NCBI GenBank assembly: GCA_003565555.1
Contig: PXBH01000028.1
Location: 1 to 60,865, forward strand
Length of the DNA stretch: 60,865 nt
Direction of reading: 5' to 3'
Source: Cryomorphaceae bacterium
Lineage (GTDB): Bacteria > Bacteroidota > Bacteroidia > Flavobacteriales_D > Cryomorphaceae
This document shows, in pieces, positions 30,680-49,732 of the stretch. Position 1 is the stretch's first letter, and each line of letters starts with the position of its first letter. The position numbers and the translations under genes were made by a program. The notes under the pieces were generated by a model, which saw nothing but the letters and a program-made list of their open reading frames with translations, was not told where the DNA came from and searched no databases.

Positions 30680-33600
30680 TCACCGGAGCAGGGTCACCGT
30701 TCCGCGATAGGTTTGCACCTCGAGGTCGAAATCGGGCCGCACCTCAATTTGCCACACATATACACCCGTTCCTTCATAGTGGCTGCCCGATGCGCCGCCG
30801 CCGTTCCACTTCCGGCGCGGGTCGGTGGTGCGGAATACGATATTTCCCCGACGGTCGGCCACCCAAAATTCGTATTCCGCCGGGTTGTAGTGGGAGAGCA
30901 CCGGCCCGAAAAGGTCGTTCAGCCCGTCGCCGTCAGGCGTGAAGGCGTTGGGCATAAAGAGGAAAAAACTGTCCTCCACGGTCACCCTTCGGCATATTCG
31001 GTCGAGGCAGCCCTCCGCACTTCGCGTTTCCAGGCACACGGAATACACCGCCCCCTCCTCCGGAAAGGTGTACACAAAATGTCTGCTTCGCCCTTCGATC
31101 AGGCTGTCCACGATCCAGGTGCTTTCCGTGTCTTGCGGAGAGAGGTTGGTGAACTCGGTGCGGGGCTGTGCCGAGTTCGGCGTTTGGGGAGAAAAGCGGA
31201 AGTCGGCAAAGGTGGTGTACACGCGCACCGTGTCAGGGAAGTCAAAAACCCGTGTACAGCCCGCCGACGAAACCGCTTCCAAGGACACGGGGTACGTGCC
31301 GGCAGAGGTGTAGGTGTAGGTGAAGTCCGGCGCCGTGCGCATGAAGCTTCGGCCGTCGGTATGCCATGTGTAGCTCACATCTTCGGCATGTGCCGCCTGC
31401 TCAAATCGGGTTTCCAGCGGGGCACAGCCTTCCGCATTCTTTGCGGTAAATGCGGCGTCGGGCAGAGGGAGCACCTCTCCTAAAACTATTGCGGTATCCC
31501 GACAGCCGCCCGCATTCGTCACCACCAGGGCAAGGGGGCCGGTCACCTCTGCAGTGTAGCGCGTCACGGCCTCCGTCGGAGAGGTAAATGCCTCCTCCGG
31601 GAGCCAGCTCAGGCTGTCGGCACCCGCTCCGAACAGCGCAACGGTATCGCCGGCACAGAAAGGGGCATACCCGAAAATTTCCGCTTCCGGGATTTCGTAC
31701 ACGGTCACGCGGGCCGAATCCCTCTGCGTGCAGCCGTTGAGCACTGCGGTGAGGCCGAGTGTGACGGTCACGGGTTCGGGCGCATCATGGCTCGGTGTGA
31801 AATTTACCGGAGAACCGGAGAAAGCACCGAGTCCGGGCACGGAATCCCAAGTATAGAAGGCCCCCGGCTCGGGCGGATTTCCGAAAGGGGTTACCGCTCC
31901 GTGACAGAGCACGGGGTCGGGACCGAGGGCTGCCTCGGGAAGCGGACGCACGTCGAGGAATACTTCGGGACCGCCTTCGGCAGCGCATTGGGCATCGCTG
32001 AGGTTCGCAATGCTGTACGTGCCCCCGATTTCAACGGGCAGGGTCGCGGTATCCTGATTTGCAGTGAATGCACCGACCGATACGCTGTCGAGCAGAACCT
32101 CATAGCTGAACGGGGCCGCTCCCTCGAAGGCGATGTTCAGGGTGCCCGTATCCCCTTCGCAAATGAATGTGTCGGTGCTCATTTGCGCCGCGGGAAGATC
32201 GTAATGCGTGAGTACGGCAGATCCGCTCACCGATCCGGTGCACCAATCGGATGCCGCAGATGTGAGGGTGTAGGTGCCTTCCTCAGCGGTTTGTATCTCG
32301 TATTCGGGTCCCTCGGCAGTTACGGCCGCAGAAACCCCGTTTATCGAATAGGTCAGGGTGACGGGGAGCGCACCCGAAATCTCGACGGTGAAGGCGACCG
32401 TGTCATACGGACAGGCGATAAGTTCGCCGGAAAGCACGGCTTCGGGACTTTGGTAGAAAACAACCGGTGTACCTTCCGCCACGGACAGGAAGGGATCTGA
32501 GAGGTTCACCCCGTCGGGTGTGGCATTTCCCGCCACGGAAGAGATGTAGTACACCGTCTCGTACACCATGTCCGGGCCGAATGAGAATTCCGGGAATTCC
32601 GACCATGCCTTCACTTCGCCGAGGGCCGGCCCCGGGAGGGTATGGAGGGCATAGAGCAGGGTGTCGTTGCCGTCGAGGGCCACCCCCGAGGCGGGTGCTG
32701 CAGATACGCCGTCATCGCAGGGCCGCAGGGTATCGGGCGACATGCTGCCCGCATCGGTGATGATCGGGCAAAAGAGGGTGCCGGAGAGGGTGTCGGCCCC
32801 GCAATCGGCCGCATCGGTGAGGATGGCTTCCACAGGGGTTTCCGAGGGCAGGGCAACCGAGGTGAATGTCGCGCCCTCAAATGTGCCGTCGAGGCCCTGA
32901 ACCCCATAGGTGCCGGGCAGCCCCTGCGTCACCGTGAATGTCAGGGTGAAAAGCGCATCGAAACCGGTGCAGGCGAATACGGGATCGGAAATCAGGGGGG
33001 TGCCGGGAAAGGTGACGAGGGTTGTATCGCTCACTGTGCAGGGGCCGTTTTCCGAAACGGCGATAAAAGCATAGGTTCCCGGACTTTCCGGGACAAATTC
33101 GATCAGATTGCCCGGCCCTTCAGTGACCGCCGTCACCCCGGACGGGAGGTTCCAGGTGAAGCTGCCTGAAGTAGCTTCGCCGTCTACGGAGGCGAGCGTA
33201 TCGCACACCGCTTGGGGCGCGGAGAGGGTAAGTTCCGGAATGTCAAAGAAGACCAATTCCGTCTCCGCCGTTGCCGTGCAGATGTCTTCGGTCACCGCGG
33301 TGAGAACCGCAATGTAGGCGCCTTCGGCAGCAGCGGTAAATTCCGCAGAATCGGTACCTTGGATCACCTCCAGTCCGGCCGTCACGGACCAGAATATTTC
33401 GTCACCCTGCGCCGTGAAGGGGAGGGTAAGTGCGGAGCCGCAGGCTGTATCTGTCAGGGCCGCGGAGACTGTGGGCGGTTCAATGAAGGTGATTTCCGCG
33501 GTATCAAAGTCGGTGCATCCCGCGCCCGCATCTTCGGTCCAGGTGAGGGTATAGGTGCCGTATGCTGCGGCGGTGATTGCGGTTTGCGGATCGTTCGGGT

Positions 33601-35362
33601 TTGCCGCGGTGAGGCCGTCCGGCAGGGTCCAGGTACCGGCGCCGAAGCTCGGCACGGCTTCCGCCGCGAAGGTCAGTCCGCAGGTGCTTGCATCCGGTCC
33701 GGCATCGGCCGTCGGAAATTGTGCTTGCGGTACTTCGATTGCAAAGAGTCCCGTACAGCCGAGCTCAAGGTCGTTGAGCACCACCTCGTAAGTCCCGGAG
33801 GCGAGCCCGGTTCTGCTGAAGGGGCCCGGCCCGATGTCTGCCCATACGGCGGTGTAATCTCCCGAGCCGTAGATCACCTGAATATCGATTCCGCCGTCGT
33901 TTCCGTCGCAGGATTCGGGGGTGATCTCTACGCTGCTCGTCAGGGAGATGAATACGGTGACTTCGTCAAAATTTTGGCACGTGCTCTCCGGGTAGGCGCC
34001 CGTTGCGGTGAATACTACCGTAGAGTCTGTGGCCGCCGTCGGATTGTCACAGGGATTGCAGGAGAAGTCGGGGCCGGGCATGACTTCTTCTCCTTCGAGG
34101 GTCCAGGTGTGGGTGTCGCCGTTTTCGGCAAAAAGATTGACCGGTTCGCCCGCGCAAACGAGGGTATCCGCCTCGGCGACCACAGGTTTGCGCAAGACCA
34201 AATCAACGGCGTAAAAGGATTGACCGATCACGGGGCAGGCGTCATCCGATGCGGTGATCAAAAAAGAGCCGCCCGAAAAGTCTGCGGGCACAGTACCGCA
34301 GAAGGTCGCCGTAGCCGGATTGGTGCCGGCCACGGTCATTTCCGCATCGGGGATGAGGGCTTCAACCGTAGAGATGAGATCTACGGAATAGCTCGGCTCG
34401 GCCGAAGCGAAAGCTATTTCAAAACAGAAGTCATCCCCTTCGCAAACGCCTACTTCCGCGGGTCCCGTGGGGTAGCCCCCGCCGCTCACCCGGCTCAGGC
34501 TGCCCGCCACGGGGGCGGGTACGGGCGCGGGGCATGGATTGACGATAAAGGTAAAGTCGTGCGTGACCCGGCCTACCAGCACACCGTCTCTGTATTCGCA
34601 TACGGATACGGCTGTGTTGAACATGCCGGGGTTTGCCGGAGTTGCAGTGATTTGCCCGTTACCGGGGTTCAGCGTCATTCCCGGAAGGGGTTCCTCACCC
34701 GAATATGGCGGGGGATATTCCATCTCCTCGGGCGCCGTAGCCACGAGTGAGGTCAGGGCGGGTGTGAGGGCATATACCAGGCTGTCGCCGTCGGGCTCGC
34801 TGAAGCCGAGGTTGTAGAATATAGGTGATGCCACGCAGACGTAGGGGAGGTTGAGCACACCCATCGAAGGGGATGTATTGCAGGTGCCGTCTTCATTGTT
34901 CAAAAAGGCCTCGACATGGATGCGGCTCGTCTCGGGTGAGATGAGGTTGAGTACGTTGGTGCGGTTTTGTTCGGCTACCACGATGCGCCAGTCTGCACAG
35001 GGGTTCAGGGTCACTTCCGCTCGGTACACATTGAGTTCTGTGCCCGGTTCAAAGCCTCCCGCACACGTGCTTTGCGGCAGCGCAGAGGGGCAGAGTTGCG
35101 AGACTTCGGAGACCTCCGTCAGTGGAAAAGACACAAAGCCGGGGGTTTCACAGGAGGAATAGATGTACACGTTGAGGTCGGCAGCGGCAGGCTCCGGGTC
35201 GGCACAATTTCTGAAACGGTTTACGGTGATTTCGTACGTGCTGCCGTCGAGGCAGGTATAGCTGATGTTGATGCCGGAATTGTGGTCTGCGCGAAGGATT
35301 CCGCAGCAAAAAAACATTGCTGCGCAAAAGAGAAAATAAGCCGGTAACCTCGAGTCCGCCAT
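30680..35362 (-). CDS. Giant T9SS type B surface protein (gliding motility-associated C-terminus)
   Basis: Secreted protein of about 1560 residues. The signal peptide (MADSRLPAYFLFCAAMFFCC..) is followed by a domain opening INISYTCLDGSTYEITV, common at the N-terminus of such Bacteroidota proteins. Many Ig-like/PKD-type beta domains follow, acid-, alanine- and proline-rich with paired cysteines; two clear PKD-like copies are near the end (around TYTYTSAGTYPVSLEA and HFVYTFPEEGAVYSV). The last 90 residues, from LFMPNAFTPDGDGLNDLF to YRGTVTLLR, are the type B T9SS sorting domain. Probably anchored on the surface as an adhesin or matrix protein. I start it at the ATG at 35362, not the TTG three codons upstream. 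Confidence 0.9.
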   Translation of the reverse strand: MADSRLPAYFLFCAAMFFCCGILRADHNSGINISYTCLDGSTYEITVNRFRNCADPEPAAADLNVYIYSSCETPGFVSFPLTEVSEVSQLCPSALPQSTCAGGFEPGTELNVYRAEVTLNPCADWRIVVAEQNRTNVLNLISPETSRIHVEAFLNNEDGTCNTSPSMGVLNLPYVCVASPIFYNLGFSEPDGDSLVYALTPALTSLVATAPEEMEYPPPYSGEEPLPGMTLNPGNGQITATPANPGMFNTAVSVCEYRDGVLVGRVTHDFTFIVNPCPAPVPAPVAGSLSRVSGGGYPTGPAEVGVCEGDDFCFEIAFASAEPSYSVDLISTVEALIPDAEMTVAGTNPATATFCGTVPADFSGGSFLITASDDACPVIGQSFYAVDLVLRKPVVAEADTLVCAGEPVNLFAENGDTHTWTLEGEEVMPGPDFSCNPCDNPTAATDSTVVFTATGAYPESTCQNFDEVTVFISLTSSVEITPESCDGNDGGIDIQVIYGSGDYTAVWADIGPGPFSRTGLASGTYEVVLNDLELGCTGLFAIEVPQAQFPTADAGPDASTCGLTFAAEAVPSFGAGTWTLPDGLTAANPNDPQTAITAAAYGTYTLTWTEDAGAGCTDFDTAEITFIEPPTVSAALTDTACGSALTLPFTAQGDEIFWSVTAGLEVIQGTDSAEFTAAAEGAYIAVLTAVTEDICTATAETELVFFDIPELTLSAPQAVCDTLASVDGEATSGSFTWNLPSGVTAVTEGPGNLIEFVPESPGTYAFIAVSENGPCTVSDTTLVTFPGTPLISDPVFACTGFDALFTLTFTVTQGLPGTYGVQGLDGTFEGATFTSVALPSETPVEAILTDAADCGADTLSGTLFCPIITDAGSMSPDTLRPCDDGVSAAPASGVALDGNDTLLYALHTLPGPALGEVKAWSEFPEFSFGPDMVYETVYYISSVAGNATPDGVNLSDPFLSVAEGTPVVFYQSPEAVLSGELIACPYDTVAFTVEISGALPVTLTYSINGVSAAVTAEGPEYEIQTAEEGTYTLTSAASDWCTGSVSGSAVLTHYDLPAAQMSTDTFICEGDTGTLNIAFEGAAPFSYEVLLDSVSVGAFTANQDTATLPVEIGGTYSIANLSDAQCAAEGGPEVFLDVRPLPEAALGPDPVLCHGAVTPFGNPPEPGAFYTWDSVPGLGAFSGSPVNFTPSHDAPEPVTVTLGLTAVLNGCTQRDSARVTVYEIPEAEIFGYAPFCAGDTVALFGAGADSLSWLPEEAFTSPTEAVTRYTAEVTGPLALVVTNAGGCRDTAIVLGEVLPLPDAAFTAKNAEGCAPLETRFEQAAHAEDVSYTWHTDGRSFMRTAPDFTYTYTSAGTYPVSLEAVSSAGCTRVFDFPDTVRVYTTFADFRFSPQTPNSAQPRTEFTNLSPQDTESTWIVDSLIEGRSRHFVYTFPEEGAVYSVCLETRSAEGCLDRICRRVTVEDSFFLFMPNAFTPDGDGLNDLFGPVLSHYNPAEYEFWVADRRGNIVFRTTDPRRKWNGGGASGSHYEGTGVYVWQIEVRPDFDLEVQTYRGTVTLLR

Positions 35363-35368
35363 GCCGCA

Positions 35369-35400
35369 CAAAGATAAGGGACCCGCGGAAGCCGCTGAAA
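35369..35400 (-). promoter_or_regulatory. Promoter abutting the T9SS type B gene
   Basis: Minus strand: TTTC (35400-35397), exactly 20 nt, then TATCTTTG (35376-35369), a full match to TAnnTTTG. Six bases separate the box from the ATG at 35362, so the mRNA leader would be about zero to three bases. Confidence 0.5.
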
Positions 35401-35437
35401 TAAAAAACTTTGCTTTATCGGAATCCTTTGCGGAAAA

Positions 35438-36514
35438 TCAGGGATTGCTTTCCGCTTCGCGAACGAAGATGAGGTATACGGGGAAGTGGTCGCTGTAGCC
35501 GCCTTGATAATTCGGCCCCACGTAGGTGCGGAAGGGATAGCCCGCAAAGTTACCTTCGGCTTGGCGCAGGTAGGGCTTGTTGAATACCCGCGCGCCGTAG
35601 TATCTGTAGCGTCCGCCTTCCCCTGTGACCAGGGCTTCGGAAATGAGCATCTGGTCAAAGAGGTTCCACGTATCGCGCCACGCAAGGGTGCCGATGCCTT
35701 TGTTGAAAAGCTCCTCCATGGGGTTGAAGAGCTTTCCTTTGCGTGCATGTTCTTTTCTTCCCACCCCCCGCAGACCGCGGCGCACACTCGGGCTTACCGG
35801 GTCGTCGTTGAGGTCGCCCGTGTAGATGATTCGCGCCATGGGGTTAAGGTTGAGCAGAGAGTCTACGATACTCCGGCCCAGCTCGGCCGCTGCCATGCGG
35901 AGTGGCAGGCTGCGTTTCTCTCCGCCCCTTCTCGACGGCCAGTGCGCCACGAGCACATGAACGGTGTCGCCGTCGAGTACGCCGCTCACCACCAGTTGAT
36001 CCCGCGTGTAGAAGTTTGGCTTGTCTTCCACTTCGAGGGTGTAACTCTTGTGGTGGTACACTTGGTAGTGTTTGGGTTGGTAAATGAGGCCCACGTCTAC
36101 GCCGCGCCGGTCGGGAGAATCGTAGTGCACGATGTCATACCCCCGCTCTTTGAGGGGCGGTGTATTGATCAGGTCTTCGACCACTTCGCGGTTTTCAATT
36201 TCGGCAAGACCCAAAACAGCTACCCCGTCGGGGTGCACCTCCGTGCCCATTTCTCCGATGACTTTGGCGAGGTCGTCGAGTTTCTTCATGTATCGCTCGC
36301 TTGTCCATTTATACGTTCCTTCGGGAGTGAAGTCGCTGTCGCGAATGCCCGGGGTGTCGAGGGTGTCAAAGAGGTTTTCCACATTGTAAAACCCCACGCA
36401 GGCGGGCACGAAAGTTTGAGCTTTCAGCGGAAGCTCACTTGTGATCATCAGGACGCAAAGCAGCAGAATGCTCTTCGATATGCGGTCGAAATAAGGAAAT
36501 GAAACGGTCATCAT
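35438..36514 (-). CDS. Secreted endonuclease/exonuclease/phosphatase-family enzyme
   Basis: DNase I-like (EEP) fold of 358 residues with a signal peptide (ending LPLKAQ, near residue 35). The family cleaves phosphodiester or phosphate bonds in nucleic acids, lipids or inositol phosphates with a divalent metal. Seen: VGFYNVENLFDT, the metal glutamate in GLAEIENREV, the RRGVDVGLIY strand, AHWPSRRGGEKRS with the catalytic histidine, TGDLNDDPVSP and the terminal SDHFPVYL. All key positions are kept. Export and the absence of a lipobox suggest a periplasmic or secreted enzyme. Start taken at the first of two ATGs (36514 or 36511). It is divergent from the TonB receptor, with 172 nt between them. 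Confidence 0.88.
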   Translation of the reverse strand: MMTVSFPYFDRISKSILLLCVLMITSELPLKAQTFVPACVGFYNVENLFDTLDTPGIRDSDFTPEGTYKWTSERYMKKLDDLAKVIGEMGTEVHPDGVAVLGLAEIENREVVEDLINTPPLKERGYDIVHYDSPDRRGVDVGLIYQPKHYQVYHHKSYTLEVEDKPNFYTRDQLVVSGVLDGDTVHVLVAHWPSRRGGEKRSLPLRMAAAELGRSIVDSLLNLNPMARIIYTGDLNDDPVSPSVRRGLRGVGRKEHARKGKLFNPMEELFNKGIGTLAWRDTWNLFDQMLISEALVTGEGGRYRYYGARVFNKPYLRQAEGNFAGYPFRTYVGPNYQGGYSDHFPVYLIFVREAESNP

Positions 36515-36531
36515 TAATCTTTTGCGGATGT

Positions 36532-36586
36532 CAAATGTAAATAAAGGAACGGAGTTCGAAGAGAAGCAAATTCGGTTCCAAACCGA
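36532..36586. promoter_or_regulatory. Divergent control region: EEP -7 box and palindrome
   Basis: Minus-strand TACATTTG (36539-36532), a full TAnnTTTG match, 17 nt before the EEP start. At 36572-36586 there is a perfect palindrome TCGGTT-CCA-AACCGA, placed between the divergent EEP and TonB receptor genes, a fitting position for an operator acting on both. No clear promoter pair is visible for the receptor; TAATATTG at 36661-36668 is the best -7-like box. Confidence 0.38.
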
Positions 36587-36686
36587 TGAAGGCATTGTCA
36601 CGGTTTGTTTAATCTTCCGTTAAATTTCGGCGACCTGTCCGAATTTCCGCGGGGTGTGCTTAATATTGCACATCAATTAACCAATT

Positions 36687-39233
36687 TTGTACAAGTTTCA
36701 ACTATTCAGAGCGGCCCTCCTTTCGGGATTTGTGTTTTGGGCCCTCTCAGTATCCGCACAGCAGGATACTTCACAGGTGAGCCTCGCTGCAGATACGCTG
36801 GATTTTTACGACAATCCGCAGATGCCCGATTTCACCATCAGCGCGGAAGACTTGGATGCCGAGTTGGAGTCACAGGATATTTCGGGCATATTGCAATCAT
36901 CGCGGGATGTATTTACCTCCACGGCGGGATTCAACTTCGGGGCGGCACGGTTTCGCATCCGCGGCTACAACTCTGACCACACCCTGATTTCGATCAACGG
37001 TGTTCAGGTGAACGATCTCGAGACGGGCCGCACCACTTGGTGGCGCTGGGGCGGGCTGAATGATGTGACGCGCTTTATGACCATCCGCACGGGGCTGCAT
37101 CCGAGCCGCTATAATTTCGGCGGCATCGGCGGTCATGCCGAAATCGATGCGCGCGCTTCTAATTTCCGGAAGGGAACAAGGGCCTCTTTTGCCGCCGCAA
37201 ACCGCACATACCGACAGCGCATCATGGCGACCCATGCCACCGGCATGATGGACAACGGTTGGGCATTTGCGGTCTCGATATCGCGAAGATGGGCCCAAGA
37301 AGGCTTTGTGGAGGGAACTCCGAACGATGCCTACGCCTATTTTTTTTCAGCCGAAAAAAAGTTGAACGAGCGCCACAGCATCGGCCTCGTGACCTACGGA
37401 GCCCCGAGCATATCGGCCGCTGCGGGTCTGTCGGTGCAGGAGGCTTACGACCTTGCCGGAACGAACTACTACAACCCGAATTGGGGATTTCAAAACGGCG
37501 AAAAGCGCAATGCCCGCATCCGCAACAATTTTCAGCCGATGACCATGGCGACCCACTACTACACGCCGAATCGGAATACGAAGCTGCAAACTTCTGTTTT
37601 CTACTCCTTCGGGCGCAGCGGGTTCAGCGGCCTGAACTGGTGGGATGCGCGCGACCCGCGCCCGGACTTCTACCGGTATTTGCCCAGCTTTTACCAAGAA
37701 GGGACTACGGAATTCAACGCAGCTACGGAAGCCTGGCAAAACGATGTAAACCGGCGTCAGATTAACTGGAACCGCTTGTACGATGCCAACCGCAACAACC
37801 TTTTTACCGTGGAGAATGCAAACGGCATAGAAGGCAATACGGTGACCGGAATGCGCAGCAAGTATATTCAGGACGAAATGCGCGACGACCTGACTTGGTA
37901 CGGATTTAACTCGGTATATACCAGGCGTCTCAACGACCGATCGCGCATCACGATAGGGGGGAGCGGCCACATTCATACCACAGACAATTACCGCATGGTG
38001 AAAGACCTTTTGGGCGGTGATTTTTGGATGGACATCGACCAGTTTGCCCTGCGGGACTTCAACAACCCTGACGTGGCCCAAAATGACCTCGATACCCCCA
38101 ACCGCCTCGTCGGCGTGGGCGACCGCTTCGGATTTGATTTTTCGTTGCATACGCGGCGTTTCAACGCTTTTTCGCAATACGAAATCAATTTCAAGAAACT
38201 CGACCTCTATTTCGGAGCCGACGTGTCGAACACCTCCTTTTGGCGGGACAGCCGCCTGCGAAACGGACGCTTTCCCGATGATTCGTTCGGAGAATCGGAC
38301 GTGCAAAACTTTACTCACTACGGGCTGAAGGCGGGCGCTGAATATAAAATCACCGGCCGCCACTACCTCACGGGTAATGTGATGCATCAGACCCGTCCGC
38401 CCTCACCGCGGTTTTCTTACCTCTCGCCGAGGATGCGGCATGAGGTCATCCCCGGGCTTACCACGGAAAACATATTCGGCGGTGACTTCAGCTACCACAT
38501 TCGCTATCCGAGGTTCAAGATGCGGGCCACCCTCTTCTACACCGAGATCAACGATCAGGTATGGGCGCGGAGCTTTTGGCACGATGAGTTGCGCACATTG
38601 GTCAACTACAGCATGACCGGTGTAGACCACCTTCACATGGGTACCGAAATAGGCATTCGGGCCAACGTGAGTCCCACCGTGGAGCTCAACGCCGTTTACG
38701 CCGGCGGACAATACCTCTGGAACAGCCGTCCCACAGCCACCATCACCAGAGACAATGCCCCGGAAATTCTGGCTACGGACCGCACGGTTTATATCCGAAA
38801 TTTTCGGGTGGGCGGTATGCCGCAAACGGCTGCCTCGGCAGGTCTGCGCTACAATTCACCGAAATATTGGTTTGCCGGGTTTAATGCCAACTTTTTTGGC
38901 CATATTTACCTTGATCCGAATCCCGACAGAAGAACCTCTGAGGCATTGGGCAATTTTGTAACCGACGATCCGCAGTGGTCAGCACTGCTGAATCAAACCC
39001 GGCTCGACAACCATTTCACAGCCGATATCTTCTTTGGAAAATCTTGGCGGGTGAAAAGAAAGTACTTTATCAACGTGAATGTCAATATCACAAATATTCT
39101 CGACAACCGAGAATTTGCCGTGGGCGGATTCGAGCAGCTTCGCTATGACCGCACCGACATTGATCGTTTTCCGCCGCGCCTGAGCTATTTGTTCGGACGC
39201 ACCTTTTTTGCCATGGTATCCTTTAGATTTTAG
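36687..39233 (+). CDS. TonB-dependent outer-membrane receptor
   Basis: A 848-residue receptor. Signal peptide 1-25 (ends SVSAQ). The plug domain (about 45-160) includes FRIRGYNSDHTLISINGVQVND and GGIGGHAEID; the rest is a 22-strand-type barrel rich in aromatic and Asn residues, ending FFAMVSFRF with the terminal Phe of outer-membrane barrels. It lacks the carboxypeptidase-regulatory N-terminal domain of SusC proteins. It would bring a ligand across the outer membrane with TonB energy. Only a TTG start (36687) fits the signal peptide. Downstream are a DUF5689 lipoprotein and two T9SS proteins; a secreted EEP enzyme is divergent. The ligand is inferred to be a nucleic acid breakdown product or other phosphodiester. 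Confidence 0.92.
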   Translation: MYKFQLFRAALLSGFVFWALSVSAQQDTSQVSLAADTLDFYDNPQMPDFTISAEDLDAELESQDISGILQSSRDVFTSTAGFNFGAARFRIRGYNSDHTLISINGVQVNDLETGRTTWWRWGGLNDVTRFMTIRTGLHPSRYNFGGIGGHAEIDARASNFRKGTRASFAAANRTYRQRIMATHATGMMDNGWAFAVSISRRWAQEGFVEGTPNDAYAYFFSAEKKLNERHSIGLVTYGAPSISAAAGLSVQEAYDLAGTNYYNPNWGFQNGEKRNARIRNNFQPMTMATHYYTPNRNTKLQTSVFYSFGRSGFSGLNWWDARDPRPDFYRYLPSFYQEGTTEFNAATEAWQNDVNRRQINWNRLYDANRNNLFTVENANGIEGNTVTGMRSKYIQDEMRDDLTWYGFNSVYTRRLNDRSRITIGGSGHIHTTDNYRMVKDLLGGDFWMDIDQFALRDFNNPDVAQNDLDTPNRLVGVGDRFGFDFSLHTRRFNAFSQYEINFKKLDLYFGADVSNTSFWRDSRLRNGRFPDDSFGESDVQNFTHYGLKAGAEYKITGRHYLTGNVMHQTRPPSPRFSYLSPRMRHEVIPGLTTENIFGGDFSYHIRYPRFKMRATLFYTEINDQVWARSFWHDELRTLVNYSMTGVDHLHMGTEIGIRANVSPTVELNAVYAGGQYLWNSRPTATITRDNAPEILATDRTVYIRNFRVGGMPQTAASAGLRYNSPKYWFAGFNANFFGHIYLDPNPDRRTSEALGNFVTDDPQWSALLNQTRLDNHFTADIFFGKSWRVKRKYFINVNVNITNILDNREFAVGGFEQLRYDRTDIDRFPPRLSYLFGRTFFAMVSFRF

Positions 39234-39238
39234 TGACG

Positions 39239-40558
39239 ATGAAAACGAATTTAATTTTCACTCCCCTTGCTTGGATCGTTTTGGTCATCGCTGCGCTTGT
39301 TGCGGGCGGATGCGAACGAGAGTATGACGAGCCGCCGCCCAGGGTGGTGCCGGTGGGCAATGTGCTCAATATTGAGGAGCTGAAATCCCTCTATCAGGGC
39401 CAGCGGGTGCGCTTCGACACGGCTTACTCAGTGTATGCCGTAGTGGTAGCCGATGAGCAAAGCGGCAACTTGTTTCGCAACATTCACGTGCAGGATAATA
39501 CCGGTGCAATCGTGCTCAGGATCAATACGCCGGGTGGACTTTACGAGGGGGATTCGGTGCGCATCTTCCTTCCCGGTACCGTGCTCAACAGCTTTCAGAA
39601 CATGATGCAATTGGACTCCGTGGATGTAGATATCAATATTGTAAAGCAGGCCACGCAGGTACATGTGGAGCCCAAATCGGTAACCCTCGCCGAGGTGACC
39701 TCAGAACTGCAGGGACAGCTGCTCCGTGTGGAAGGGGTGGAATTTACGGAAAGTGACTTGGGAAGAACTTTTGCCAATGCCGAAACCCAGCAGACGGAAA
39801 ACCGAACCATCACCGACTGCGACGGCAATACTCTGTTGGTACGCACCAGCGGTTTTGCAAATTTTGCCGGAGCAACCGTTCCGGAAGGAAACGGATCGAT
39901 TGTGGCGGTGCTGGGCCAATTCAACAATGACCTCCAGCTCTTCATCCGCAGACTGCCGGAAGTGGTGATGGAGGATCCGCGTTGCACCGGCGGAGGCAGC
40001 GGAGGCGGGGAATGCGAGTATGATGTAAACCCTGTTGCACAAGTGGCGCAGAACTTCGATGACGTTGCCAATGACAATACAGACTATGCCAATCCCAATT
40101 GGCAAAACATCAACGTACAGGGCTCCCGAAGGTGGCGGGGTCGAATATTTCAAAACGACAAGTACCTCCGCGCCACAGGTTTTATCGGGCAGGGTGCCGA
40201 AGTGCCTCCAACCGAAATGTGGTTGATCACGCCGCCTGTGATTGCTTCTCAGGCGCCCACACTCACCTTCAGGTCGGCGCAAGCCTTCTGGAGCCACGAT
40301 GAAGATGTACCTTTTCAGGTGCTGATCTCTCACGATTACGACGGCTGTGATACGGAAGAGGCCACTTGGACGGAAATCACCAACCTGAACAGACCCACCC
40401 AAAGCAACAGCAACTACCAATGGGTGCCCAGCGGAAACGTACCGCTGACCCAATATTTGCCGCAAGGCTACCAGGGAACCTACCACATCGCCTTCAAATA
40501 CTACTCAGTGGGAACCCAAACCACGACCATTGACATCGACGACATTAACATCCAATAA
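39239..40558 (+). CDS. DUF5689 surface lipoprotein
   Basis: Predicted lipoprotein of 439 residues. Signal peptide with lipobox LVAGGC (C25); the following residues EREYDEPP are acidic, as in Bacteroidota surface-export signals. Residues about 40-240 match the DUF5689 pattern, two beta-barrel halves that look OB-like (VYAVVVADEQSGNLFRNIHV.. and LLRVEGVEF..). A Gly/Ser linker (GGGSGGG) leads to a C-terminal region (about 258-439) that resembles the choice-of-anchor J jelly roll (NFDDVANDNTDYANPNW). The gene starts 5 nt after the receptor stop, taking the ATG at 39239, so the two are coupled much like susC/susD; it may be the substrate-capturing lid. No enzyme motif is seen. Confidence 0.82.
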   Translation: MKTNLIFTPLAWIVLVIAALVAGGCEREYDEPPPRVVPVGNVLNIEELKSLYQGQRVRFDTAYSVYAVVVADEQSGNLFRNIHVQDNTGAIVLRINTPGGLYEGDSVRIFLPGTVLNSFQNMMQLDSVDVDINIVKQATQVHVEPKSVTLAEVTSELQGQLLRVEGVEFTESDLGRTFANAETQQTENRTITDCDGNTLLVRTSGFANFAGATVPEGNGSIVAVLGQFNNDLQLFIRRLPEVVMEDPRCTGGGSGGGECEYDVNPVAQVAQNFDDVANDNTDYANPNWQNINVQGSRRWRGRIFQNDKYLRATGFIGQGAEVPPTEMWLITPPVIASQAPTLTFRSAQAFWSHDEDVPFQVLISHDYDGCDTEEATWTEITNLNRPTQSNSNYQWVPSGNVPLTQYLPQGYQGTYHIAFKYYSVGTQTTTIDIDDINIQ

Positions 40559-40581
40559 CCACACTTTTAAACCCTGACATC

Positions 40582-41916
40582 ATGAAACAATTTGCTTTTC
40601 TTTTTTCTGCCTGCTTATTTGCAGTGCAGGTGTCCGCTCAGCTTGTCGACAGCGACTTCGGCACATGGAGCGGCGGTCTGCCCGAAGGATGGGCCGGCTC
40701 AAAGACCAATCTGGCCGCAGCCTCGATCAATGAAATAGACAATGACGGAGGTTTCGGCGATGCCGCAGTACAACTGGTGCGCACCGAAAGCGGCCACCAG
40801 CGATTCACCACGCAGCCCCACGACGTTGAGGCAGGTGTGAGCTACGAAATCACCTTCTGGGCCCGCGGAAACGGTGATGTGCGCACCGGACTTTTTGACG
40901 ACCGCAGCGAGGGATTCGGTTACGTATACAACAGCTACGTGAGCCTCAGCTCCGGGGAATGGAATGCCTTCACCCAAACCATCACGGCAGAGGAGACCGT
41001 CAGCAATGCCGAGTTTATCTTTTCGGTGAGAAACACTTCGGGCATGCACGTTCAGATCGACCGCGCCGTAATCGCCGAAGCGGGTGCCCCGGAAGCAGTT
41101 TCGATTTATGACATACAGTTTACCACCGATCCCTCGGGCGACTCTCCCCTGGCAGGAAGCACGGTGCTCACCGGCGGTATTGTGACCGCATTTTGGGAAG
41201 ATAACGGGTTCTGGATTCAAAACAATTCAGGCCCCTGGCAGGGCGTGTTTGTATTCGCTCCGAACCAGACTGTGGTCGAAGGTGACAGCGTGGTGCTTAC
41301 CGCACAGGTGGTCGAGCACTTCGGCATGACTCAACTGACCAACCCTACCGGCTTCAATGTGGAAAGCACCGGCAATGCAGTGCCCGCTCCTGCCGCGATC
41401 ACCACGGCCGATGCCAATACAGAACCCTTTGAGGGCGTTTTGGTGCAAGTGTCCGGCGCAGAGGTGGTGAATCCCAACTCCGGCTTCGGGCAATTCATTG
41501 TCAACGACGGATCCGGTGAGGCTTTGATCAACCGAAATATCTACGACTTTTTCGTGACACAGGGCGAGGTGCTCGATATTACGGGCCCTACCTATTACTC
41601 TTTTCAAGAATTTAAGATCAAACCGCGTTCGGCAGCCGATATACAGCCCTCACTCAGCACCTCGTCTCGGTCGGCATCTGATCTCAATGTATTTCCCGTG
41701 CCGGCCTCTGATGTGTTGAATGTGGACTGGACGGCCCTCGATACCGAGCGTGTGGACTACACTCTCTTTGACCTTTCCGGAAAAGTGGTGCGGCAGGGTA
41801 CTTGGACCGATCGTAGGTCAGAAATCTCCGTAAGCGCGCTCCCCGCGGGAATGTACCAACTTCAGCTCCGCAACGGAAGCGAGGTAGTACACCGACCGGT
41901 AGTAGTAACGCGTTGA
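40582..41916 (+). CDS. T9SS-secreted protein with jelly-roll and OB-like domains
   Basis: Secreted protein of 444 residues. Signal peptide about 1-19 (VQVSAQ). Residues about 20-170 form a carbohydrate-binding-like jelly roll (FTTQPHDVEAGVSYEITFWA). Residues about 175-358 (VSIYDIQFTTDPSGDSPLAG.., GIVTAFWEDNGFWIQN, QTVVEGDSVVLTAQVVEHFG) resemble the OB-fold region found beside extracellular nucleases such as YhcR, but with no nuclease domain attached. The end (FPVPASDVLNVDW to RPVVVTR) is a type A T9SS sorting domain. It is 23 nt after the DUF5689 gene and closes the receptor operon at a strong terminator. Role inferred: an extracellular binding protein. Confidence 0.8.
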   Translation: MKQFAFLFSACLFAVQVSAQLVDSDFGTWSGGLPEGWAGSKTNLAAASINEIDNDGGFGDAAVQLVRTESGHQRFTTQPHDVEAGVSYEITFWARGNGDVRTGLFDDRSEGFGYVYNSYVSLSSGEWNAFTQTITAEETVSNAEFIFSVRNTSGMHVQIDRAVIAEAGAPEAVSIYDIQFTTDPSGDSPLAGSTVLTGGIVTAFWEDNGFWIQNNSGPWQGVFVFAPNQTVVEGDSVVLTAQVVEHFGMTQLTNPTGFNVESTGNAVPAPAAITTADANTEPFEGVLVQVSGAEVVNPNSGFGQFIVNDGSGEALINRNIYDFFVTQGEVLDITGPTYYSFQEFKIKPRSAADIQPSLSTSSRSASDLNVFPVPASDVLNVDWTALDTERVDYTLFDLSGKVVRQGTWTDRRSEISVSALPAGMYQLQLRNGSEVVHRPVVVTR

Positions 41917-41940
41917 TTTCAAAATACCGGTGAAAATAAC

Positions 41941-41977
41941 CGAAAGGAGGACTGCGACAGTTCTCCTTTCGCTTTTT
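41941..41977 (+). terminator. Intrinsic terminator of the receptor operon
   Basis: Stem CGAAAGGAG (41941-41949) with CTCCTTTCG (41963-41971), extended inside by ACTG/CAGT around a three-base loop, then C and five T. It separates the three-gene receptor operon from the PLD gene. Confidence 0.85.
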
Positions 41978-42005
41978 CGAATCTATTCGGTTCACCATAT
42001 CTTTA
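41975..42005 (+). promoter_or_regulatory. Candidate promoter of the PLD gene
   Basis: TTTC (41975-41978), a 19-nt spacer, then TATCTTTA (41998-42005), one mismatch from TAnnTTTG. The ATG is four bases further, which would make the mRNA leaderless. The -33 part lies in the T-run of the preceding terminator. Confidence 0.42.
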
Positions 42006-42009
42006 CAGG

Positions 42010-44217
42010 ATGAAATTTTTGCGAGGAGTGATGTGGGGATGGCTGTTTGCCGCGGTCTCGGCGGCAGGAGTGCAGGCCCAGGAGGTGATGGATATTGCTG
42101 ATGCGCGCACCATGGAGTTGGGTACGGTAGTCACGGTGACGGGTACGTCTACCTGCGGTCAGGAATTCGGAAATATCCGCTACTTCCAAGACGGAACCGG
42201 AGGCTTGGCCGCCATACAGCAGGGGCTGACCTCGGGCATATCCCGCCACGATTCGATTACCATCACAGGAACGCTGAGTTCTTTCAACGGACTCCTGCAG
42301 CTTTCACCGGTATCGAACCTCGTGATCCACGGGCAGGCATCTGTTCAGATCGCGCCCGTTACCTTAAGTCCCGGCGATATCAGTGAGGAAACGGAAGCCC
42401 TTCTGGTGCACATACCGCAGAGCAGTTTTTCGGAGGGGGGGCAGACCTTTTCGGGAAATACATCCTATTCCGTCACCTCGGGGGGCGAAAGTGTCAATGC
42501 ATATATCCGAAACGGGCATCCGCTGATCGGGTCTGTCATTCCCGCATTTCCCGTGTCGTTGACCGCCATTTCCTCGCAGTTCAGTTTTTCGGGAAGCGGA
42601 GGCTACCAAATCCTGCCCCGAGATGAGGGAGACTTTCTCACCCCGAATTCTATCAACATTATTTCGGCGGTGACTGCAGCCCCGCCCCAGCCGGGAAGTT
42701 TCAGCTTGTCGTGGACCACGGATGTAGCGGGTACTTCCGAATGTTTTTACACAAGCCATATCGACGGGGAGGGGCTTACGCAAAACGTGTTTACGTCGAC
42801 TTCCGCTTCGGTCCAGCACAGCATTACGGTGGAAGGGGCAGATCCGGGCGAGGTGTATTTCGTGCAGCCCTTTTCTGCGGCCGACGGAGATACGGCTTTC
42901 GGAGCGGTTCGCGCTTTGGCCACCGTTTCGAACAGTTCGGGAGAGATCGGTGTGTTTTTTAACGGAAGTGTAGACCACTCCCATGCATACCCCGATGATA
43001 ACCTCGCTATAGTCACCGATCTCCGGCAAAAAGCAATTGAGGTGATCAACAATGCTGAGCAGACCATATCGATGGCTGCTTACAACATCAATGATGTGCA
43101 GATTGTGGCGGCGCTCAACTCTGCCCATCTGGCCGGTGTGGAGGTGCGCTACATCGCTGAAGGGCAAACTGCCAATACCGCACTGGCCAACCTGCATCCC
43201 GGAATTCCGATTCTGATTCGCGAGGACGGACTCGGCTCGGGAATGCACAATAAATTTATTGTGACAGATTATGCGTCGGTTGACAACAGCTATGTGCTCA
43301 CGGGAAGTACCAACTTCACGCAGAACCAACTGAACAGCGATTACAACCACATGATTGTCATTCAGGACCGTGCGCTGGCTAAGGCTTTTACCATCGAGTT
43401 CAACGAAATGTTCGGCAGCAGCGGAGCCACTCCCGATCAGGAAAAGTCTCGTTTCGGCCCCGATAAGACGGACAATACCCCGCGCGATTTTATCATCGGC
43501 GGAAGGCCTACGGAGCTGTACTTCTCTCCCTCCGACGGGACGAATAACGGAATCGTCAATGCGATCGAAAATGCGGAGGGAAGGCTTCATTTTTCCCTCC
43601 TCGTTTTCACCATGAGCTCCCTTGCCCAAGCTGTAATCAACCTTCACAACGCATCCGGAACAGATGTGCGGGGAATGATCGATCAGATCAACTCACCCGG
43701 ATCGGAGTTTGCAAACTTACAGGACAACGGAGTGGATGTGCTCCACCACAACGTATCAGGTGCGCAGCTCCACCACAAATATGCCATTGTGGACTACGGC
43801 CTTCAGGGAGCTGCCGTGATCACCGGTTCGCACAATTGGTCGGCATCTGCCAACAATGTGAACGACGAAAACCTTCTGATCATTCGGGATACCGAACTGG
43901 CCAATATCTTTTTCCAAGAGTGGAGTGCAAGGAGAAATGAGCTTCCGCTGAGTACCGACGATCGACCCGTGGCCCTGTACCGTTTGTATCCCAACCCCAC
44001 TTCGGGCAAGGTGTATATTACTGCCCTGAAGCGCATGCGCAGCAGGGATACCGTGCATATCTTTGACCTTTCGGGAAGGCAGGTTGCCGCCTATCCGGCA
44101 GAACCCATGCAGCCCGGCGAGATGACGGAAATCGACCTGTCCGGCTTGCCGAACGGTTCGTATGTTTTGAAATTTGCGGGAAGCGGGGTATCGGAAAAGG
44201 TGATGCTCTTGCGTTGA
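42010..44217 (+). CDS. T9SS-secreted phospholipase D/nuclease-family protein with OB domain
   Basis: A 735-residue secreted protein. Signal peptide about 1-25 (ending GVQAQ). An OB-like domain (about 35-105, GTVVTVTGTSTCGQEFGNIRYFQ) and a linking beta region (about 105-310) precede two PLD-superfamily halves. HKD motif 1 is in MHNKFIVTDYASVDNSYVLT (H413, K415, D420, then GSTNFT); motif 2 is LHHKYAIVD (H588, K590, D595, then GSHNWS). With both HKD motifs intact it is catalytic, cutting phosphodiester bonds in nucleic acid or phospholipid; the OB domain favours nucleic acid. The C-terminus (YPNPTSGKVYI to KVMLLR) is a type A T9SS sorting domain. It has its own promoter and terminator, directly after the receptor operon. 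Confidence 0.88.
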   Translation: MKFLRGVMWGWLFAAVSAAGVQAQEVMDIADARTMELGTVVTVTGTSTCGQEFGNIRYFQDGTGGLAAIQQGLTSGISRHDSITITGTLSSFNGLLQLSPVSNLVIHGQASVQIAPVTLSPGDISEETEALLVHIPQSSFSEGGQTFSGNTSYSVTSGGESVNAYIRNGHPLIGSVIPAFPVSLTAISSQFSFSGSGGYQILPRDEGDFLTPNSINIISAVTAAPPQPGSFSLSWTTDVAGTSECFYTSHIDGEGLTQNVFTSTSASVQHSITVEGADPGEVYFVQPFSAADGDTAFGAVRALATVSNSSGEIGVFFNGSVDHSHAYPDDNLAIVTDLRQKAIEVINNAEQTISMAAYNINDVQIVAALNSAHLAGVEVRYIAEGQTANTALANLHPGIPILIREDGLGSGMHNKFIVTDYASVDNSYVLTGSTNFTQNQLNSDYNHMIVIQDRALAKAFTIEFNEMFGSSGATPDQEKSRFGPDKTDNTPRDFIIGGRPTELYFSPSDGTNNGIVNAIENAEGRLHFSLLVFTMSSLAQAVINLHNASGTDVRGMIDQINSPGSEFANLQDNGVDVLHHNVSGAQLHHKYAIVDYGLQGAAVITGSHNWSASANNVNDENLLIIRDTELANIFFQEWSARRNELPLSTDDRPVALYRLYPNPTSGKVYITALKRMRSRDTVHIFDLSGRQVAAYPAEPMQPGEMTEIDLSGLPNGSYVLKFAGSGVSEKVMLLR

Positions 44218-44246
44218 CCCGAAGGGTGCAAGCCGGCCCCAATGAA

Positions 44247-44274
44247 AAAGGACCGGCACATTTGCCGGTCCTTT
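44247..44274. terminator. Bidirectional terminator between PLD and hydrolase genes
   Basis: Perfect 12-bp stem AAAGGACCGGCA / TGCCGGTCCTTT around CATT, between convergent genes. The A-rich 5' flank and pyrimidine-rich 3' flank suit both directions, though the T-run is interrupted. Confidence 0.75.
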
Positions 44275-44332
44275 CCCTAATCACCAATTAAACCTTATTA
44301 ATGAAATCCGAGTGCTTCTACGCACGGTGTTT

Positions 44333-45091
44333 TCATTCGGTTACGAATTTTCTCAAAACTTCTTCCAACCCGTCGGGGTCTTCTGCGTGAACCCAGTGAC
44401 CGGCAGGAAGTTCGGTGAATTTTGCCCGAGGAAAAATTTTTCTGATCTCCGCATGGTCTTCCGGGTTGATATAGTCTGATTTGGTCCCCGCCACGAAGAG
44501 CGCAGGAATGTCCACAGGTTCCTCGGGCAGGGCTTCCAAGATTTGCGGCATGGCCGCCTCGAGCACCGGAATGTTAATGCGCCATGCGAAGGTGTCGCGG
44601 TCTTTTCGGTAGAGGCTTTTCAGCAAAAATTGCCGCACCCCGAAGTCGGGCATGTGCGGCTTCATCTGTTCCTCAGCATCTTTTCGAGAAGTGAGGGATT
44701 CAGGTTTTACCGCCTTCAGCGCTTCGAGCACCGGCCCGTGGTGAGGTTCGTAGGTTTTCACGCCCATGTCGATCACGGCTATTTTATCCGCCTTTCCGGG
44801 AAAAAGCTGTGCGAACCGCATGGCTGTTTTTCCCCCCATGGAGTGGCCGATGATGACCGGTGATTTTAGCTCCTCCCGCTCGATGAAGCGGTTGAGGTCT
44901 CCGGCCATGAGGTCGTAATTCATCTCGTCGCTGTGGGGAGAACGGCCGTGGTTGCGCTGGTCGACCAGGTAAACGGCGTTGTCATCTGCCAGTTTTTTTC
45001 CGAGGGTGAGCCAGTTGTCAGATCCGCCGAAAAGGCCGTGGAGAATCACCAGAGGTTTTCCTTCCCCGTATTTTTGAAAAAAGAGCTTCAT
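44333..45091 (-). CDS. Alpha/beta-hydrolase (YbfF-like esterase)
   Basis: Alpha/beta hydrolase of 252 residues, cytoplasmic. Seen: the oxyanion segment [23 protein letters not shown], the nucleophile elbow [13 protein letters not shown], an acid in the [13 protein letters not shown] region and the late histidine in [12 protein letters not shown]. This spacing matches YbfF-type esterases; the natural substrate is unknown. I start it at the ATG at 45091, which overlaps the pdxJ stop as ATGA; the longer frame would run through pdxJ. It is thus the second gene of a pdxJ operon. Confidence 0.87.
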
Positions 45092-45801
45092 CGCAGTGCT
45101 TTCAGATAGAGTTTTACAGTGTTTTCGAGGCCGAGGTAGAGGGCGTCGCAGATCAGGGCGTGGCCTATGGAGACTTCTGCCAAATCGGAAACAGATTCGT
45201 GAAAGAAGCGCAGGTTCTCCAGATCGAGGTCGTGGCCGGCATTTACGCCCAACCCGCATTTCACCGCATGTTCGGCAGCCGAGACGTAGGGGGCGACGGA
45301 ATCCGCTTTATTTTTTCGAAAGGCCGTCGCGTAGGCTTCGGTGTAGAGTTCGATCCGGTCGGCGCCGGTTTCCGCAGCACCCTCAACGGTTTCCTTAAGG
45401 GGGTCGACAAAAAGACTCACGCGGCAGCCCATATCCTTGAGCCGCGATACGGTCTCCGAAAGAAACTTTCGGTGCTTCACGGTATCCCAGCCTGCATCGG
45501 AGGTGAGCACGTCCGGCCCGTCAGGTACAAGGGTGGCTTGTTCGGGGCGCACATCCTTGCAGAGATTGAAAAACCGCTCGTCCGGATATCCTTCAATATT
45601 GTATTCGGTAGTGATAAGCGGCTTGAGATTGTATACATCCCGTGTGGTGATGTGTCGCTCATCCGGACGCGGGTGTATGGTGATGCCTTGTGCACCGAAC
45701 TGCTGGCAGTCGATGACTACCTGTTCGAGGTTTGGGTTGTTGCCCCCGCGGGCATTGCGCAAGGTGGCTATCTTGTTGACATTTACACTTAGCTTTGTCA
45801 T
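45088..45801 (-). CDS. pdxJ: Pyridoxine 5'-phosphate synthase
   Basis: Condenses 1-deoxyxylulose-5-phosphate with 3-amino-2-oxopropyl phosphate in vitamin B6 synthesis; 237 residues, TIM barrel, cytoplasmic. Seen: the N-terminal [71 protein letters not shown], and [13 protein letters not shown]. The start is the ATG at 45801; a much longer frame upstream crosses into the divergent CBS gene. PLP made through this pathway serves enzymes such as the cysteine desulfurase at the window start. A -7 box lies at 45834-45841. Confidence 0.95.
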
Positions 45802-45833
45802 CGATTTCTGAGTATATTGCGCCTTCGGCGCCA

Positions 45834-45841
45834 CAAATGTA
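45834..45841 (-). promoter_or_regulatory. -7 box TACATTTG upstream of pdxJ
   Basis: Minus-strand TACATTTG is a full match to TAnnTTTG and lies 32 nt before the pdxJ ATG. No clear -33 TTG is seen at 19-21 nt. It sits in the 79-nt divergent gap between pdxJ and the CBS gene. Confidence 0.42.
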
Positions 45842-45880
45842 AAGTTTAAGGGACGCTTTTTGTTTTTAACGATTGAACTT

Positions 45881-46543
45881 ATGCGAGCAGGAGACCTAAT
45901 CAGTGACGAGATACCTACCTTAGAGGGCAGCGACAGCGGTTTGTTTGCCATGCAGTTGCTCGACGAGTATAAGATGACCCATCTGCCCGTGGTAGAGAAG
46001 AACCGGCTGCTCGGCCTGATATCAGACACGGCGGTGTACGAGATCGACGATCATGAAAAGCCACTCAGCGAGATGCGCGAGCACCTGCAGCAAATTTTTG
46101 TGGTGCAGGACCGTCACGTATATGATTTGGTCAAGACCGCGGCAGATTTTCATCTCAGCGCCGTTCCGATTGTGGATATGAACGGCAGTTATGTCGGCGT
46201 GGTCAGCATCTACTGCCTCGTGCGCGAGCTTTCTAAAATTTCGGCCGTCAACGACCCCGGAGCCATTGTTGTCCTGGAGGTGCCCGAAAAGGACTACAGC
46301 CTTTCCGAAATTGCCCAAATCGTGGAATCTGACGATGCCCGAATCATCAGCGCCAATGTGACCTCCACACCCGATTCTACCAAAATGGATGTCACTCTGA
46401 AGATTAACCGCGACAATGTGGACGGCATCCTGCGAAGCTTCCAAAGGTACGACTACGTTGTCAGTGCATCCTACCGGCGGGAAGGATACGGCAGTGACCT
46501 CCGTGACCGCTACGACGAATTGATGCGCTACCTCAATACCTGA
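45881..46543 (+). CDS. CBS-pair protein with ACT-like C-terminus
   Basis: A 220-residue cytoplasmic protein. Residues about 1-125 form two CBS motifs (first around MKTHLPVV-type [18 protein letters not shown], second around [18 protein letters not shown]), which usually bind adenine nucleotides. The C-terminal half (about 130-205, [20 protein letters not shown] and following) looks ACT-like. No enzyme domain, so a sensor or regulatory subunit. The start is the ATG at 45881, before the RAGDLIS CBS opening; an upstream TTG frame is not needed. First gene of the long envelope run; the Omp85-like gene follows after 9 nt. The partner is unknown. Confidence 0.86.
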
Positions 46544-46552
46544 ACACGCTGT

Positions 46553-47962: not shown

Positions 47963-48840
47963 AAAAAATCGCCATTTACGGAAAGCCCGTTGAAAATCCG
48001 CTCAACGCATCGGTGCGCAAGATGACCGCTTCGATGGAGCGCAAAGGTTTTGAAGTGATTTACTACGAGCGCTTTGCTAAATTTTTGACGGCGCGAGGAT
48101 TTCTTCCGGAGGGAATCCCCGTTTTTAACCGCGAGAACGTGAACCTCGACGGTATCGCCTTTCTGGTCAGCATGGGCGGAGACGGTACCTTTCTCGATAC
48201 CGCTACCCTGATCGGAAATTCGGGGGTCCCTGTGGTCGGAATCAATGCAGGCAGGCTGGGATTTATCTCGGGCACCGGTGTGGCCGAAACCGAGGCCGTT
48301 TGCGACGCATGGCTCGAAGGTACGGTGAGGTTCGAAAACCGAAGTTTGCTGCAATTGCATTCCGAGCGCAACCACTTTGCTCCGCAGAATTTTGCACTGA
48401 ATGAACTCACGGTACTGAAGAAAGATTCGGCAGCCATGGTGCGTATAGACGTGGACATCAACGGGGAGGCCTTGAACAGCTATTGGGCAGACGGCCTCAT
48501 CGTATGCACCCCAACGGGCAGCACCGCCTATTCTCTGAGCTGTGGGGGGCCTATCGTGATGCCCGGCTCCGAAAACTTTGTAATCACTCCCATTGCTCCC
48601 CACAACCTCAACGTGCGGCCCGTCGTGGTGAGCAATTCCGCCGAAATTACCATCCGCGTCTCCGGCAGGAGCGATCACTTCCTGCTGGCCCTCGACAACC
48701 GCCCGGACGATTTCGGTCCGGATGAGGTACTTACCGTAAAACGTGCCCCTTTCGATCTCAGGATTATTCAGCCCGAAGGGCACAGCTTCCTGAATACCCT
48801 TCGCAATAAGTTGGCTTGGGGCTATGACAAGCGGAATTGA
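47959..48840 (+). CDS. nadK: NAD kinase
   Basis: ATP-dependent phosphorylation of NAD to NADP; 293 residues, cytoplasmic. Seen: KIAIYGKPVE, the GGDG motif (MGGDGTFLD, G73-G76, including the conserved aspartate), GINAGRLGFI, NELTVLKKDSAAMVRID, GLIVCTPTGSTAYSLSCGGPI and APHNLNVRPVVV. The start is TTG at 47959, overlapping the preceding stop as TTGA; the family N-terminus starts just there, and no ATG is available. NADPH from this step serves AroE among others; the placement in an envelope gene run is typical for Bacteroidota. Confidence 0.94.
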   Translation: MKKIAIYGKPVENPLNASVRKMTASMERKGFEVIYYERFAKFLTARGFLPEGIPVFNRENVNLDGIAFLVSMGGDGTFLDTATLIGNSGVPVVGINAGRLGFISGTGVAETEAVCDAWLEGTVRFENRSLLQLHSERNHFAPQNFALNELTVLKKDSAAMVRIDVDINGEALNSYWADGLIVCTPTGSTAYSLSCGGPIVMPGSENFVITPIAPHNLNVRPVVVSNSAEITIRVSGRSDHFLLALDNRPDDFGPDEVLTVKRAPFDLRIIQPEGHSFLNTLRNKLAWGYDKRN

Positions 48841-48846
48841 ACTAAC

Positions 48847-48878: not shown

Positions 48879-48894
48879 CGGCAGAAACGCTATA

Positions 48895-49728: not shown

Positions 49729-49732
49729 AGGT

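Follow-up and report, generated by a model that had tools for sequence, protein, structure and literature searches.

Introduction

Natural transformation is a route by which genes spread, and knowing the gate through which DNA enters the cell matters for predicting which species are capable of it. At stake is how DNA passes the outer membrane of Bacteroidota; the genomes tested in this work have ComEC and DprA and no secretin. The closest described system comes from Riemerella anatipestifer. There, a transposon screen for natural transformation led to RS04915 (receptor-like) and RS04920 (DUF5689 plus DUF5017), which are predicted to form an operon; when either gene was removed by markerless deletion, transformation fell below the detection limit (PMC8459023, Table 2). 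Deletions in a SusC/RagA operon of nine genes, by contrast, had no effect on transformation or reduced it by a factor of about 16 at most. The published model includes a strand-processing nuclease without an identified gene. In the available sections of that paper, RS04910 appears only as an upstream gene with unchanged transcription. The paper reports homologues of RS04915 only in Flavobacteriaceae. The tonBA and tonBB mutants of R. anatipestifer also transform less (PMC8383284). Here we describe a related locus in a 60,865-nucleotide stretch of a Cryomorphaceae genome (contig PXBH01000028.1, the whole stretch being referred to as the window), in which five genes between positions 35438 and 44217 encode an EEP-fold enzyme, a TonB-dependent receptor, a DUF5689 lipoprotein and two proteins secreted by the type IX secretion system (T9SS), the second of them with PLD domains. 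A preliminary description, made from the sequence alone, had interpreted these genes as a scavenging locus for nucleic acids or phosphodiesters and had named no described system with this set. However, the Riemerella pair (PMC8459023) shares its core; this indicates DNA uptake for transformation, and a nutritional role is possible but unproven.

Other described systems resemble parts of the locus. As in a SusC/SusD locus, the polysaccharide utilisation design that the preliminary description saw here, a TonB-dependent receptor is accompanied by a surface lipoprotein and secreted hydrolases. Unlike such loci, glycan-active enzyme domains are absent, and neither the receptor nor the lipoprotein matches a SusC/RagA or SusD model in NCBIfam or Pfam, so we rejected membership. 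The BtuB-BtuG system of Bacteroides also combines a classical TonB-receptor barrel with a partner surface lipoprotein, but that lipoprotein is unrelated and its expected ligand is different. Type IV pilus/secretin competence of the PilQ type shares the inner-membrane half, namely ComEC, DprA and an HhH protein, but the window genome and Riemerella have no secretin. In the extracellular DNase ExeM/NucH (NF033681, NF033680), LTD, OB-like and EEP pieces resemble those found as separate genes here and in a sister module; unlike ExeM, which is one polypeptide, the pieces here are split around a TonB receptor. The matches are to the OB-like region in the window T9SS protein (E 1.8e-11) and to LTD in the sister LTD protein (E 1.6e-13), with a weak EEP match. 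All of them lie far under the family cut-offs, the partial matches of the T9SS protein (43.6 bits) and the EEP protein (16.1 bits) being set against a cut-off of 300 bits.

Orthology to the Riemerella transformation pair

The window and Riemerella have a common layout, in which a divergent EEP gene is followed by the receptor and then by the DUF5689 gene. The window receptor was the reciprocal best match of RS04915 (404 bits, versus 110 for the next), and the window genome has no other receptor of this type. In a 60-row tree, 39 receptors designated REC1, including those of Riemerella and the window, were placed on one side of a branch with a support of 100, apart from a second group, REC2. 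Because of the reciprocal best match, the fully supported clade and the same layout, we identify the window receptor as an orthologue of RA0C_RS04915. The lipoprotein, which lies directly downstream on the same strand as in the Riemerella pair, matched DUF5689 (165.8 bits) plus DUF5017/choice-of-anchor J, carries the lipobox AGGC and is 28% identical to RS04920 over 409 residues (E 5e-32). Against the NCBIfam model NF052645 (M949_1556 lipoprotein), it scored 162.6 bits, under the curated cut-off of 475, while RS04920 scored 599; judged by these scores, the window lipoprotein is a relative outside the narrow M949_1556 subfamily.

To place the EEP gene, we used the Riemerella genome that we took, on locus-tag arithmetic, as strain ATCC 11845. 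Its locus reads recA, a dinB-like gene, three sdh genes, comEC, two genes, EEP, receptor and DUF5689, with the position of comEC confirmed by search and the other genes named by reading the sequence. The locus tags RS04870 (recA), RS04895 (comEC), RS04910, RS04915 and RS04920 imply the same order, and therefore RS04910 is the EEP gene. The receptor of a named R. anatipestifer record (L123) is 93% identical to that of this genome. Unlike Riemerella, the window receptor has no N-terminal CarboxypepD_reg domain, the operon has an extra gene for a T9SS OB-like protein with a PLD gene after it, comEC lies elsewhere in the genome, and the species belongs to another order.

The competence context is also alike. 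The window genome encodes one ComEC, one DprA, an HhH protein and one DUF1343 (NamZ) protein, as Riemerella also does. A secretin (PF00263) was found in none of eight genomes, including the window genome (assembly 96.7% complete) and Riemerella, and in 6 of 14 control genomes. Thus the inner-membrane competence machinery is present and the usual outer-membrane pore is absent in the window genome. Collectively, orthology and layout place the core of the locus with the Riemerella-type transformation pair, to which the locus adds a conserved EEP gene and an accessory OB-like protein. Our literature search, which left preprints and most subscription papers outside, found no paper beyond PMC8459023 that names RS04915 or joins Bacteroidota, natural competence, DNA uptake and TonB, and none other that mentions DUF5689.

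A conserved EEP gene accompanies the pair

The EEP protein matched PF19580 with 416 bits, and its catalytic motifs NVE, EIEN, GDLND and SDH are all intact, the catalytic residues being invariant; a sequence search returned no relative of solved structure. The preliminary description had assigned it to the cell surface. Since it has a signal peptide with neither a T9SS tail nor a lipobox, and since its orthologues are alike (a simple pattern search found no lipobox in 34 of 36, and none of the 36 has a long tail after the SDH motif), the enzyme is instead predicted to be periplasmic.

Divergent EEP, receptor and DUF5689 genes stood in this order in 57 of 64 named loci, which had been gathered with the Riemerella query and are mainly from Weeksellaceae. 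In an even, class-wide sample, the receptor was present in 64 of 295 genomes; the EEP gene was divergent within 1.5 kb of it in 40 of these 64 and lay within 6 kb in another arrangement in 10, and two further genomes had a divergent EEP gene in the loci that we fetched (L098 and L099). Homologues of RS04915 were found in many families of orders beyond that of Flavobacteriaceae. The arrangement recurs in dozens of genomes, far beyond chance, with the EEP gene (RS04910 in Riemerella) as the third conserved component beside receptor and lipoprotein. Of the gene set proposed in the preliminary description, it is thus the EEP, receptor and DUF5689 genes that recur across the class, while the PLD gene is absent from most orthologous blocks. 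The comparison therefore extends the Riemerella pair to other orders of the class and names RS04910 and its orthologues as a conserved candidate for the missing nuclease of the published model; as far as the literature searched was accessible, it contained no published test of this gene.

The lipoprotein and the OB-like domain

The predicted structure of the lipoprotein is beta-rich and confident (predicted local distance difference test, pLDDT, 90). Its C-terminal half is modelled as a jelly-roll that resembles the cleaved-adhesin domains of gingipains (Z 15.0; root-mean-square deviation 2.9 over 151 residues), and the matches from a fold search cover this half only, none bearing on the N-terminal fold. 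At the sequence level, the first half of DUF5689 is homologous to the N-terminus of the PLD protein (hhalign 99.4%), which in turn is homologous to the middle of the T9SS protein (99.7%), so that the OB-like regions of the three proteins are, by profile comparison, one homologous domain. The suggestion that DUF5689 itself consists of two OB-like halves found no such support; a match of 2% between the halves led us to reject homology between them at the sequence level; they may share a fold all the same. Searches of the domain profiles against solved structures for an OB fold gave nothing useful, and the OB-like domain of one relative weakly matched the Pfam OB nucleic-acid-binding family (E 0.004).

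Several relatives (L035, L042, L107 and L108) have two tandem DUF5689 lipoprotein genes after the receptor. Elsewhere in the window genome, an open frame of 2255 amino acids matches the second half of the DUF5689 domain with 37.5 bits (G000:C227:40838-41149). RS04920 (L119:15831-17234) passes the cut-off of the M949_1556 lipoprotein family, and M949_1556 is reported to affect lipopolysaccharide and antigenicity in R. anatipestifer (cited in PMC4976936 and PMC12566107). This is a second phenotype for the lipoprotein family, which the transformation paper, in its available sections, does not join to it (PMC8459023).

The T9SS protein that follows the lipoprotein has a type A tail, a CBM_4_9-like region and an ExeM/NucH-type region, and no enzyme domain. 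A T9SS protein occupies the place after DUF5689 in most order-level relatives, and nothing homologous follows DUF5689 in the Riemerella locus; the window protein is an accessory of the operon. The PLD protein has two PLDc_2 stretches, and its two HKD motifs (HxKxxxxD), located at residues 413 and 588, are intact; it also carries a type A tail.

Probable exchange with an alternative module

None of the seven other genomes searched from the window's own family had a close match to the receptor. Five of the seven were fetched; in each, an LTD protein and a REC2 receptor lie beside a giant CHU_C/PKD-type protein. In three of them (G002, G003 and G005), the hydrolase-pdxJ flank lies on the other side, so this is the same chromosomal spot as the window's. 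In G001, G002, G003 and G006, an OB-PLD protein follows REC2, and the window PLD protein is 54-57% identical to such same-genus copies. By contrast, the LTD-REC2 loci of those relatives contain no counterpart of the window EEP, receptor, lipoprotein and T9SS protein, which are 73, 74, 61 and 53% identical, respectively, to those of another family, with which the window receptor groups in the tree, next to genomes of another order. These data suggest that a REC1 block was substituted in place for the LTD-REC2 part, probably following horizontal transfer, and that the PLD gene is a remnant. The PLD gene, which stands behind a terminator-like hairpin, is absent from most blocks and is tied to the REC2 module, was therefore rejected as a core member; it appears to be a leftover of the alternative LTD-REC2-PLD module of the window's family.

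An exchange of this kind is also seen in a further family (f3), in which one genome (G042) has the REC1 block and another (G020) has LTD-REC2-OB-Endonuclease I; their flanks match, and they share the two EEP genes. LTD-bearing REC2 receptors form one supported clade. The two modules occurred together in none of the fetched order-level genomes (0/10 LTD-REC2 among 20 REC1 genomes; Fisher p 0.011, uncorrected for relatedness and with part of the REC2 loci inspected). In one relative, Endonuclease I stands in place of PLD on the same OB scaffold. Because Endonuclease I is a nuclease family, this exchange is the best evidence here for the substrate and points to nucleic acid. The preliminary description is supported in its choice of nucleic acid as the likely substrate. 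The comparison thus points to a second, interchangeable module. The sister module at L060:6716-15385 runs LTD, REC2 and OB/Endonuclease I, the first and last of these with T9SS tails, and two EEP genes come next, of which the second also has such a tail. It is a candidate second DNA-uptake module, seemingly undescribed.

A model of DNA uptake and competing explanations

We consider it likely that the core, comprising the EEP enzyme, the receptor and the DUF5689 lipoprotein, is an outer-membrane DNA-uptake machine that operates without a pilus or secretin and feeds transformation and perhaps nutrition. In this model, the surface lipoprotein, with its DUF5689 and adhesin-like domains, would bind extracellular DNA, helped by the T9SS-secreted OB-like protein, and would hand it to the TonB-energised receptor, which would pull it into the periplasm. 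There, the EEP enzyme is predicted to cut or trim the DNA and could be the strand-processing nuclease of the Riemerella model, the HhH protein would hold the DNA, and ComEC would pass single strands to DprA and RecA. The PLD protein would be a secreted nuclease remaining from the alternative module, and fragments may also serve phosphate or nucleotide needs. Our comparison establishes gene order, orthology, motifs and conservation, and the need for the receptor and lipoprotein was demonstrated in Riemerella by others. For this organism, we infer the function of the core, DNA as the ligand of the lipoprotein, its passage through the receptor and the role of the EEP enzyme as a periplasmic nuclease. 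The earlier proposal of a receptor-lipoprotein import pair with phosphodiesterases alongside is borne out in its outline. A broader reading, somewhat less likely than not, is that a large part of the Bacteroidia takes DNA across the outer membrane by a gate of receptor and lipoprotein that is powered by TonB, needs no pilus and has its own periplasmic EEP nuclease. Such a gate would exist in two or more versions that replace one another at a single chromosomal position (EEP with REC1-DUF5689-OB, and LTD-REC2-OB/nuclease).

Plug was the sole family match of the receptor, and a sequence search found no relative of solved structure. The receptor model (pLDDT 84) is a classical TonB-receptor barrel nearest BtuB, FhuA and FecA; the structural neighbours include the BtuB-BtuG pairs 8blw and 8bmx, at 12-13% sequence identity over the aligned part, and the top structural rows list no SusC, which by itself excludes nothing. 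Several points weigh against DNA uptake by the core. Because the model resembles ordinary small-ligand TonB receptors, it would be a tight fit for double-stranded DNA, whose passage is a real difficulty; single-strand passage or displacement of the plug would be needed. The OB fold and DNA binding are both putative. The window proteins are just 28-38% identical to those of Riemerella. ComEC and DprA, like the other competence companions, are found widely and carry little weight by themselves, and iron effects may confound the drop in transformation of the tonBB mutant (PMC8383284). Finally, attempts to transform Flavobacterium johnsoniae failed under the conditions used (PMC7965970), although Flavobacterium carries homologues (PMC8459023, Table 4).

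The failure of F. johnsoniae to transform would favour nutritional scavenging of nucleic acids, in which surface nucleases would cut DNA or RNA, the pair would import oligonucleotides and the periplasmic EEP enzyme would finish them, transformation being a by-product where ComEC and DprA are kept. The secreted PLD protein, as well as Endonuclease I and the second EEP enzyme with a T9SS tail in relatives, would suit such a role, as would a tight modelled pore that admits short fragments. We nevertheless consider scavenging unlikely, since either Riemerella deletion abolishes transformation, so that intact-enough DNA passes (PMC8459023). Moreover, the secreted nucleases are missing from many blocks, including that of Riemerella, while the EEP, receptor and DUF5689 genes stay.

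Phospholipids and inositol phosphates are also among the substrates of enzymes with EEP and PLD folds; this would fit a pair that imports another ligand, such as a cofactor or phosphorylated nutrient, or that shapes the cell surface, the Riemerella transformation defects being indirect. We regard this as quite improbable: the modelled likeness of the receptor to small-ligand TonB receptors, among them BtuB, which has BtuG as its surface lipoprotein, and the link of M949_1556, namesake of the family of RS04920, to lipopolysaccharide and antigenicity would favour it, but both deletions abolish transformation, in contrast to the limited effect of the SusC/RagA operon deletions (PMC8459023), and the exchange for Endonuclease I on the same OB scaffold points to nucleic acid.

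Organisation of the locus

All five open reading frames (ORFs) were present where the preliminary description had placed them (Table 1). The lipoprotein ORF opens at a GTG at 39233, and the ATG at 39239 lies 5 nucleotides after the receptor stop; the spacings of 5 and 23 nucleotides reported for the receptor operon are correct. The five genes had been taken as a single block. However, the terminator-like hairpin cuts off the PLD gene, and the block is therefore not one operon. A search of positions 30000-50000 against Rfam returned no RNA family, and a promoter scan at the locus gave hits at chance level only.

Table 1. Coordinates of the uptake locus and its flanks in the window
Feature	Position	Strand	Remarks
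Giant CHU_C/PKD-domain protein	30680..35371	-	Flank of the locus; marks the swap site, outside the machine
EEP-fold phosphodiesterase (PF19580)	35438..36514	-	Likely start 36514, longest ORF to 36601; divergent from receptor; orthologue of RA0C_RS04910
TonB-dependent outer-membrane receptor, REC1 clade	36687..39233	+	Plug domain; orthologue of RA0C_RS04915
DUF5689 + choice-of-anchor J surface lipoprotein	39239..40558	+	DUF5689, lipobox; orthologue of RA0C_RS04920
T9SS type A protein, CBM-like and OB-like (ExeM N-terminal type) regions	40582..41916	+	Accessory of the operon
Intrinsic-terminator-like hairpin	41941..41971	+	14 pairs (7 G-C), then T run; between receptor operon and PLD gene
T9SS type A protein, N-terminal OB-like domain and two PLD (HKD) domains	42010..44217	+	PLDc_2 121.7 bits; HKD motifs
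Alpha/beta hydrolase + PdxJ	44333..46029	-	Other flank, adjoining the uptake module in several families; marks the swap site, outside the machine

Across several families of the order, the string of hydrolase, pdxJ, CBS, Omp85/POTRA and NAD kinase genes (44333-48840) neighbours the uptake module, whose chromosomal position therefore looks old. Relatives of the giant CHU_C/PKD protein flank both the REC1 and the REC2 versions of the locus, as well as the block of another family (L028).

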